Assembly: GCA_002862465.1 (NCBI GenBank)
Contig: PKDD01000120.1
Location: 1 to 64,000, forward strand
Direction: 5' to 3'
Source of the DNA: Haliea sp.
Lineage (GTDB): Bacteria > Pseudomonadota > Gammaproteobacteria > Pseudomonadales > Halieaceae
DNA length: 64,000 nucleotides
Of this stretch, positions 61,431 through 64,000 are shown in pieces. Below the pieces are notes generated by a model. The model did not search any database, was not told the origin of the DNA, and saw only the letters and a list, made by a program, of their open reading frames with translations. The number at the start of each line of letters is the position of its first letter. The stretch's first letter is position 1. A program made the position numbers and the translations under genes.

Positions 61431-62363
61431 TTACTCTCCGCTTACGTGCTGTGAAGCCATCAGACTACCATGACAGTTGAGATCCGCGTCTATCGCAAAC
61501 CACGGTAAACCCAAGTTATGCAGCCAATCCAACGCCTCGTCCGCAGGCTTTAACATGGCAATAGTTGCCGAACTGCCGGCTACAAGACACTGTTCCGCCA
61601 AGACACTAACAGCGACGAGACCCTGCACAGGCCAACCTGTGCGCGGATGCAAAATATGGCCGTAACGTTTTCCGTCCAAGTGCAAACAACGCTCGTAGTC
61701 ACCACTACTAGCCAACCCGCCTTCAGGTAGGTACACACCAGCCATCGCATGGTCTTTTTCTACCGGGTGCCGAATACCTATCGGCCAACCTGAAGTCTCA
61801 CGGGTGGCCCCTTGAGGACGGCCAAGAGCGACCATATCACCTGCTAGATCGATCAAAGCGGACGTAACCCCGTGACGTCGTAATTGCATCGCAGCACTGT
61901 CAGCAGCATACTCTTTCACGCAGCCGCCAAAATCCAGTTCCATGCCTACTTTGGGCAGATACACACTACCCTGATCCCGCTGCACCATATCCCACCCCAC
62001 TAACGGCAGCAAGGCCTCAATCTCTAACTCATCAGGGCAACGACCGGACTTGAAATCCCACGCCAAGCGAAGCACACCAGATGTCAGATCAAACAAACCA
62101 CCACTCTCACGCCATGCAGTATCGGCATAGCCCAGCAAGGCTGATGTTTCTGGATCAATCGATACCGGCACCCCAGCGCCAGCGGCGCTATTGATTCGGC
62201 TAGTCAAAGAGCCATCGAGGTAACGGCTGTATTTCATTTCGAGACGAGAAACCTCTGCGACAACCGCTTTAACCGCCGAGTCAGCCACTGCCTCATCACC
62301 TACATTTATACGCAGACAACAGGGGCCGCCCATTGCTTTAAAGCTATGTTCGATGCGCACCAT
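61431..62363 (-). CDS. apbE: FAD:protein FMN transferase (ApbE)
   Basis: 'FKAMGGPCCLRI', 'LEMKYSRYLDGSLTSRINSAAG', 'LDFGGCVKEYAADSAA', 'ALIDLAGDMVALG', 'HILHPRTGWPV'. Confidence 0.93.
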   Translation of the reverse strand: MVRIEHSFKAMGGPCCLRINVGDEAVADSAVKAVVAEVSRLEMKYSRYLDGSLTSRINSAAGAGVPVSIDPETSALLGYADTAWRESGGLFDLTSGVLRLAWDFKSGRCPDELEIEALLPLVGWDMVQRDQGSVYLPKVGMELDFGGCVKEYAADSAAMQLRRHGVTSALIDLAGDMVALGRPQGATRETSGWPIGIRHPVEKDHAMAGVYLPEGGLASSGDYERCLHLDGKRYGHILHPRTGWPVQGLVAVSVLAEQCLVAGSSATIAMLKPADEALDWLHNLGLPWFAIDADLNCHGSLMASQHVSGE

Positions 62364-62376
62364 CGACGCTCAGCCT

Positions 62377-63561
62377 TTATTTAAAGACGTAGCTCAGCCC
62401 AACGCCATAGCGCCAACTATCGACAAGTGCCGGAGATTCCTCGCCGCTGTATAGACCCCAACTCTCGTCTGTTTGATAACGCTCTGCATCTGCATTAATA
62501 GACCAGTTACCGATCTCGTAGTTAAGTCTCAAACCGTAAGAGAAAGCCCCAAACGCAGACAACCGATAATCGTCTGAAAAATAATTATTGTCGTCATCAT
62601 CGTTTACCACTACGGAAAAGAATTTTGCCCTGTCTTGGGTATAGTATCGGATGAACGGCGCAACGGTTATGTCTTGCCCAACATTCTGAATCCATGCGAC
62701 GTCAAGAGTCTGTGATGCGATGTCCCAGTCATCATCAAAATATCGATAATCCACATGCAGTGCAGCATTTTGCTCAACAAAAAACTGACGATATCCTACG
62801 CTTGCGGTCCACTCCTTGCGCTCATCCGGACGGTTATCCTTATACTTGTATGGGTCAGTGAGGTAACCGTCTCGGTAGGTATAACTAAGCCCAAAACGCA
62901 TAAGTGCCCGCTTACTAATAATACGTGATACGCCAATCCAAGCAGAACGTATGTCCTTAGTGGCTGCCAACGTATTAGTCGGATAGTTGCCCTGAGTCGG
63001 AGTAATATCATCATCGGATGCACTGACTGACGCGCTATAAGTCGTCAACCCATCGTCACTATTGAGCGAACCATCTAAACTCAGCGCATTAGATTCATAA
63101 TCGTCCTCATCGGAATATGTATAGTTAATTCCAGCAGTACCAGTGTCAAAATAGTAACGGGTAGTAACGCTTACTTCCGTCCGCGTATCCTCGATACTGG
63201 CTCCACTCATAGCAACCTTTGGATCGCCATCGTCCGCAAGACTTTCGCCAACGAACCATGGTGAGGCGCCGCTCAGGTCCTCCCAGCCGACGTCTACAGC
63301 GACGGACCAATCATCTGACACAGGGGCCAATAGATGGAACTGCGCGACATCAACATCCATTCTTTGGCTGCGACCCCCGAAGACCTTTTTAGCCGGTAGA
63401 TCATCTTCGGTATATTTACTGTAACGCATGCCTATTTCTGTAAAATCCGGAGGCGCATCTGCCACAGCGACGTTATAAGCCGGCAGCAACAGCGCACTTG
63501 AGGTTAGTGCGGCAAGTGTCTTGTTGCGCTCTTCGTGAGTCGATGATGCCATCAGTTGCAC
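62377..63561 (-). CDS. DUF3570-like outer-membrane-type beta-barrel protein
   Basis: N-terminal signal-like segment; 'WEDLSGASPWFVGES...KVAMSGASIEDTRTEVSVTTRYYFDTGTAGINYTYSDEDDYESN'; alternating strands, C-terminal 'GVGLSYVFK'. Confidence 0.8.
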   Translation of the reverse strand: MQLMASSTHEERNKTLAALTSSALLLPAYNVAVADAPPDFTEIGMRYSKYTEDDLPAKKVFGGRSQRMDVDVAQFHLLAPVSDDWSVAVDVGWEDLSGASPWFVGESLADDGDPKVAMSGASIEDTRTEVSVTTRYYFDTGTAGINYTYSDEDDYESNALSLDGSLNSDDGLTTYSASVSASDDDITPTQGNYPTNTLAATKDIRSAWIGVSRIISKRALMRFGLSYTYRDGYLTDPYKYKDNRPDERKEWTASVGYRQFFVEQNAALHVDYRYFDDDWDIASQTLDVAWIQNVGQDITVAPFIRYYTQDRAKFFSVVVNDDDDNNYFSDDYRLSAFGAFSYGLRLNYEIGNWSINADAERYQTDESWGLYSGEESPALVDSWRYGVGLSYVFK

Positions 63562-63758
63562 CCACAGCCACCGCCAGCGGCTCCGGTACCGCCTGACGAT
63601 GCTTCCTTGCTCGCATAAACCTGATTACGCAGGCGCGTCTCCATCACGTTGGGCTGCCACTGCATCTCGTCTTTAGAGAGAATACCACGCTCCCAAGGCT
63701 GCACTGTTTCGCAGCCGCACAACATCAAGGGAAGTAAAAGTCCGGTCAGATATTTCAA
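63552..63758 (-). CDS. DUF4266-like small lipoprotein with C-terminal GGGCGCN
   Basis: 'MKYLTGLLLPLMLCGCETVQPWERGILSKDEMQW...SSGGTGAAGGGCGCN'; lipobox-like LMLCGC. Confidence 0.85.
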   Translation of the reverse strand: MKYLTGLLLPLMLCGCETVQPWERGILSKDEMQWQPNVMETRLRNQVYASKEASSGGTGAAGGGCGCN

Positions 63759-63763
63759 ATTTT

Positions 63764-64000
63764 TTATTCCTTTAGCAGCATCACAATTTCGGCTCGCAAT
63801 TGCTCGCCGTCACTTTTTCGAAAACCCTGGTGAATCTCGCGCACCACGCCTTGTCGATCGATAAGATAACCTGTAGGCATCCCCATAATTCCATAGGCTT
63901 GCGGCGAAACGCCCTCACCGTCTCGGACCACAAGATAGCTCACTGGAATATCAGACAAAAATTGCTGAGCGTCCGCTTCTACTTCATCGACGTTGATAGC
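63764..64000 (-). CDS. TlpA/thioredoxin-like protein, C-terminal part (5' end beyond window)
   Basis: frame stays open to 64000: 'AINVDEVEADAQQFLSDIPVSYLVVRDGEGVSPQAYGIMGMPTGYLIDRQGVVREIHQGFRKSDGEQLRAEIVMLLKE' (GxMGMPTGYLIDRxG). Confidence 0.85.
   Translation of the reverse strand, partial: AINVDEVEADAQQFLSDIPVSYLVVRDGEGVSPQAYGIMGMPTGYLIDRQGVVREIHQGFRKSDGEQLRAEIVMLLKE

Follow-up and report, generated by a model that had tools for sequence, protein, structure and literature searches.

Which protein of a compact four-gene operon in a Haliea genome receives the flavin that the encoded ApbE transferase would attach, in which compartment does this happen, and what could the finished flavoprotein do? 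The operon lies at the end of the window, as we call the 64,000 nucleotides analysed here, which form the start of contig C6 (ending at 67224) of a 3.3-Mb draft genome. The original prediction described it as a candidate envelope redox system in which the ApbE target may be one of the neighbouring DUF proteins. The gene set of ApbE, DUF3570, thioredoxin and DUF4266 was already described by Méheust et al. (2021; PMC8238504), and the operon is a further copy of it, which makes the finding itself modestly new. Three aspects, which emerged from comparison with more than 100 relatives, go beyond the papers found: the predicted outer-face position of the FMN sites, a signal-less ApbE sub-family with a KE/Gly signature, and its candidate EF-hand partners. 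Besides the published status, the original prediction had missed the signal-less ApbE, the outer-membrane barrel with outer-face FMN sites that modelling predicts for DUF3570, and the FMN_bind proteins elsewhere in the genome.

Results

The four minus-strand genes, predicted to be packed end to end, were borne out by open reading frames and Pfam matches. They encode i) an ApbE FMN transferase of the KE/Gly sub-family without a signal peptide (61431..62363, -; PF02424, E=1e-64), which scores 219 bits against a cut-off of 25.6 and has the invariant H236 and D176, ii) the ApbE substrate DUF3570, a predicted 16-strand outer-membrane beta-barrel (62377..63561, -; PF12094, E=1e-59), iii) a small DUF4266 lipoprotein with a TTG start, a lipobox Cys and a Gly-rich tail ending in GGGCGCN (63552..63758, -; PF14086, E=6e-21) and iv) the C-terminal part of a TlpA/ResA-like thioredoxin (63764..64000, -), so classified by its Redoxin/AhpC-TSA matches. 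The full thioredoxin gene covers 63764-64322 on the contig, and the complete protein has 185 aa, a WCGPC motif and an N-terminal signal or anchor. Pfam scores of the first three proteins all exceed the curated cut-offs, and that of the thioredoxin stays below because the gene is cut by the window edge. The 10-bp overlap noted earlier between DUF4266 and DUF3570 holds for the GTG start of the window ORF, but relatives of DUF3570 begin at an ATG nine bases inside (M4 of the window ORF), which is likely the true start and gives a typical 1-base overlap.

Past position 64000, no canonical ApbE substrate was found up to the contig end at 67224, where only DUF446/YqcC and a molybdopterin oxidoreductase are encoded. 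A canonical substrate just past the window would have spoken against the original prediction, which this outcome therefore favours; the substrate missed in the earlier remark is DUF3570, a part of the operon itself. Elsewhere, the same genome encodes FMN_bind proteins of the NqrC/RnfG type, one of them beside another ApbE. A DsbD gene is absent from the cluster, and the single DsbD_TM protein of the genome is encoded on another contig, C53. Scanning for promoters and terminators returned no more sites than in shuffled sequences. The closest named relatives are Halieaceae (Halioglobus/Haliea), with a 92% identical DUF3570 in a Halioglobus MAG.

That the ApbE target is a DUF protein of an envelope redox operon, as had been proposed, agrees with published work: in Chlorobium luteolum, the one species for which covalent FMN on DUF3570 is published, the cognate ApbE flavinylates this protein at the serines of two [ST]GA[ST] motifs, and the modification requires both serines (PMC8238504). 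The window protein has both motifs as SGAS, at residues 97-100 (site 1; 63262..63273, -) and 119-122 (site 2; 63196..63207, -), with Ser100 and Ser122 as the residues predicted to be modified. A Ser/Thr-Gly-rich stretch in the tail of DUF4266 (SSGGTGAAGGG) could instead mark this lipoprotein as the FMN target, but the window protein lacks an [ST]GA[ST] motif, for which reason the candidate was rejected, and the published flavinylation is that of DUF3570 (PMC8238504); we give the lipoprotein next to no chance in this role. The C. luteolum assay used signal-truncated DUF3570 in the cytosol of E. coli, where the protein was mostly in the pellet (PMC8238504). A folded barrel is therefore unnecessary for flavinylation, and an unfolded chain can be modified.

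In the literature searched, DUF3570 and DUF4266 are mentioned only in Méheust et al. (2021). That study counted 227 clusters in which DUF3570 is linked to DsbD, besides 316 that combine ApbE, DUF3570, thioredoxin and DUF4266 without DsbD; the window operon falls in the latter sub-type. It also pointed out the CxC motif of DUF4266 and left the function of the gene set open. In its main text there is no barrel fold, outer-face FMN, signal-less ApbE or altered metal site (PMC8238504), and our search for flavinylated EF-hand or outer-membrane barrel proteins returned nothing relevant.

To follow the families across genomes, 80 loci were collected with the DUF3570 alignment. All four genes co-occur in 64 of them, in line with the idea of a conserved association; among the remaining 16 loci, many are truncated by the end of a contig. 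The order TlpA-DUF4266-DUF3570-ApbE is conserved far beyond chance, with operon-like spacing (median gaps of 0, -1 and 7 bases). At protein level, a WCxxC-type active site is kept in all 69 complete TlpA neighbours, and the DUF4266 tail reads G[GA]GCGC[NY] in 79 of 80 relatives. Both [ST]GA[ST] motifs of DUF3570 are intact in 70 of the 80 loci, eight have one, and the other two are truncated ORFs; Ser100 and Gly98 of site 1 are invariant in 50 homologues. A fifth shared gene was sought in the 8-kb flanks of the 80 loci, where we found only clade-specific synteny (desaturase, cold-shock, kinases), and no plasmid-borne relatives were found.

Several deviating loci were recorded as well. Three DUF4266-DUF3570 pairs (L107, L078, L075) have no TlpA or ApbE nearby and would need an ApbE in trans. 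A second DUF3570 lineage (L026-L030, L140, L141, L144-L147) mostly has SSAS in place of SGAS together with an ARGAEGG-type DUF4266 tail, and an ApbE near these low-scoring SSAS-type proteins, if there is any, is ordinary (KG/Asp) and signal-bearing. One 912-aa protein (L187:5266-8004, +) fuses DUF3570 via a His-rich linker to a further barrel-like C-terminal part of about 360 residues. In seven loci, DUF1588/FG-GAP and DUF1501 proteins are encoded close to the cluster, in most cases immediately upstream of it (for example L110:118-5238 and L116:5800-7179). Finally, the signal-peptide region of the window DUF3570 (residues 15-38, LxALTxxALxLPAYxxAxADAPP) is conserved beyond what is usual for signal peptides and might serve as a recognition signal for ApbE or for an export factor.

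As for the fold of DUF3570, a PDB sequence search gave no match. With 50 homologues, AlphaFold2 returned a 16-strand barrel after the signal segment (pLDDT 88, pTM 0.85). Using a Myxococcota member as target again gave 16 strands and the same placement of the FMN sites, this run being a repeat on another target and not fully independent, since the two alignments share many rows. The best Foldseek matches are outer-membrane barrels (PelB, FadL, OmpG, BcsC, CdiB, MtrB). Loops are mostly long after odd strands and short after even strands, and G388 and F393 of the C-terminal beta-signal are at least 90% conserved. Taken together, the even strand number, loop alternation, beta-signal and fold match predict that DUF3570 is a BAM-assembled outer-membrane beta-barrel. 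The long loops after odd strands would then be extracellular, an assignment that depends on the general rule by which BAM-assembled barrels keep their N- and C-termini in the periplasm.

The long loop 2, which joins strands 3 and 4, is flanked by the two SGAS motifs. All 17 invariant strand residues among the 50 homologues point into the lumen, judging by hydrophobic alternation, and by hand count 16 of them belong to the extracellular half. The 14 invariant loop residues are confined to extracellular loops, and the short periplasmic turns have none. The two FMN sites, together with almost every invariant residue, are thus predicted at the extracellular mouth. Since the outer loops usually vary more than any other part of ordinary porins, a conserved chamber in this position would most simply be a functional site around the FMNs.

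Cysteine is absent from the mature DUF3570 in 74 of 77 homologues. In consequence, any thiol chemistry must reach the flavin via DUF4266 or TlpA, and the thioredoxin and the CxC lipoprotein probably feed electrons to DUF3570; for the role of DUF4266 and the electron route, this is guilt by association. The same finding fits a different idea, namely that DUF3570 is an ordinary porin-like barrel and that the flavin and its CxC partners form its periplasmic repair or maturation pathway: any thiol client would then be DUF4266, and TlpA/ResA-like proteins are mostly maturation reductases. Since the published substrate is DUF3570 and conserved charged lumen residues encircle the FMN sites, we consider such a maturation role quite improbable.

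The second component that stands out is the ApbE itself. An in-frame TGA two codons upstream of its ATG leaves no room for a signal peptide, and a hydrophobic N-terminal stretch is missing in all 130 sub-family sequences inspected. Its signature consists of K150-E151 and G263, the latter replacing the aspartate that by alignment corresponds to D280 of E. coli Ftp, which coordinates metal 1 through its side chain and its backbone (PMC4767422). The gain of the neighbouring Glu suggests from the alignment a swapped metal ligand. In a set of 136 non-redundant ApbEs, all 96 sub-family members are KE/Gly and 37 ordinary ones KG/Asp, accompanied by two further variants, PG/D and KG/E, and one degenerate paralogue; a mixed type does not occur among these 136 sequences. 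As most of the sub-family forms a single clade, this covariation reflects few evolutionary events. Divergent members with a low profile score (L133, L135, L142) have the same signature, and KE/Gly offers a means of recognising such enzymes from sequence.

Searching 398 Pseudomonadota genomes with a sub-family profile gave scores of at least 278 bits in 23 genomes and of at most 249 bits for all other matches listed. DUF3570 is present in 18 of the 23 genomes with a sub-family ApbE and in 11 of the 375 others (Fisher p=1.5e-19). The Haliea genome also has a third ApbE (G000:C23:9836-10720; L038:9824-10726, -), a long-branch duplicate of the window ApbE lineage. It was rejected as a second enzyme of the system, since the Lys, the catalytic-type His and one of the GGD glycines are no longer present, and to judge from these losses it is probably an inactive pseudo-enzyme.

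Five of the 23 genomes lack DUF3570, and in three of them the ApbE adjoins a small signal-less EF-hand protein with an N-terminal MPQAx[ST]GAS or PQVMTGAS motif. An EF-hand profile matched with more than 70 bits in exactly four of the 398 genomes, all among the five without DUF3570 (p=5e-9, an optimistic value given that three of the four matched genomes supplied the profile). EF-hand proteins with the PQAx[ST]GAS motif are encoded at L185:4140-4541 (+), L181:6367-6780 (-), L184:4688-5023 (+) and L191:521-937 (+), beside KE/Gly ApbEs or in the same genomes, and in more distant EF-hand proteins elsewhere the motif is absent at the N-terminal position. Several copies occur in genome G139, among them a 713-aa multi-EF-hand protein with SGAR at the site. 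Since the EF-hand-linked ApbEs nest among the DUF3570-linked ones in the tree, the partner was switched at least twice. The sequences make these signal-less EF-hand proteins a candidate cytosolic flavinylated family, absent from the literature searched.

This second type of partner also bears on where the enzyme works: a partner that never leaves the cytosol makes the enzyme itself most simply cytosolic. All well-studied envelope ApbEs work outside the cytosol (review PMC12052999), and a signal-bearing ApbE adjoins DUF3570 in the other lineage (L026, L027, L029). The window enzyme could likewise enter the periplasm by an unrecognised route and flavinylate DUF3570 there before or during BAM assembly, like ordinary ApbEs. 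The C. luteolum construct, worded as 'signal peptide-truncated ... similar strategy' (PMC8238504), may mean that the ApbE of that lineage had a signal, which counts against a cytosolic reaction. However, a sub-family of about 100 members without signal, in the window even without space for one, and its pairing with signal-less EF-hand proteins speak against periplasmic action, which we regard as unlikely.

Discussion

Taken together, we lean slightly towards the operon making an outer-membrane flavoprotein by FMN attachment in the cytosol, export, BAM insertion with flavins at the surface, and electron supply by TlpA and DUF4266. In this scheme, the ApbE would take FMN from FAD and attach it to Ser100 and Ser122 while the DUF3570 precursor is still unfolded, presumably in the cytosol; Sec would export the chain and BAM would insert it as the predicted 16-strand barrel, whose extracellular mouth would hold both FMNs in a conserved and charged internal chamber. 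The TlpA-like protein would be reduced by the DsbD encoded elsewhere in the genome and, together with DUF4266 and its Gly-rich tail ending in Cys-Gly-Cys, would pass electrons to, or possibly from, the FMNs. Speculatively, the length and Gly content of this CxC tail would allow it to extend into the barrel. The barrel would then act as a flavin-based surface redox port that reduces, for example, Fe(III) or another extracellular acceptor.

The direction of the electron flow cannot be read from sequence, and a reversed flow was considered possible in PMC8238504. The barrel could accordingly oxidise thiols, sulfide or Fe(II) at the cell surface, with TlpA and DUF4266 bringing electrons or disulfides inwards, which would suit relatives that are mostly marine, largely aerobic bacteria. 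Since DsbD-linked versions of the cluster favour outward flow and some published clusters include a VIT1-type iron transporter (PMC8238504), an oxidase has a low probability in our estimate.

Several points speak against the proposed scheme: FMN-bearing chains would have to cross SecYEG, DsbD is encoded outside the cluster, and some loci have no TlpA or ApbE nearby (e.g. L107). The more specific proposal, that a cytosolic ApbE with an altered metal site flavinylates the barrel before export to give a haem-free surface electron port, and that on two or more occasions its sub-family took up cytosolic EF-hand proteins as a new substrate class, is put forward tentatively, as a possibility that falls a little short of probable.

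Should the barrel indeed hold its flavins on the outer face, the system may provide a simple and widespread outer-membrane electron transfer for bacteria without multihaem cytochromes. Were an ApbE without signal peptide to modify a substrate that is later exported, the covalent cofactor would be put in place ahead of export, a departure from the classical route of envelope ApbEs. The EF-hand partners would represent a new, possibly calcium-responsive flavoprotein class. These clues make the function of the published gene set directly testable.

In comparison with known systems, the operon shares with the clusters of PMC8238504 the four families, two [ST]GA[ST] motifs in DUF3570 and the CxC of DUF4266, but it has no adjacent DsbD and its thioredoxin is TlpA/ResA-like, whereas the paper quotes PF13899. 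With the canonical periplasmic ApbE/Ftp of E. coli, V. cholerae and T. pallidum, the window enzyme has the fold, the GD and HxxxP-TG motifs and, mostly, the metal-site Thr in common; it differs in lacking a lipoprotein signal, in the exchange of the metal-1 Asp for Gly and in the Glu that replaces Gly after the Lys. The cytosolic ApbE of Klebsiella pneumoniae, which acts on a soluble fumarate reductase (as cited in PMC12052999), likewise has no signal peptide and flavinylates in the cytosol, as we infer for the window operon; its substrate remains cytosolic, in contrast to the exported outer-membrane barrel predicted here. A functional analogy is offered by the MtrCAB porin-cytochrome conduits, in which an outer-membrane barrel (MtrB, 6r2q_B) also carries a redox cofactor towards the surface. 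The fold match is weak and we claim no homology: DUF3570 is predicted to have 16 strands where MtrB has 26, and would carry covalent FMN instead of haem.
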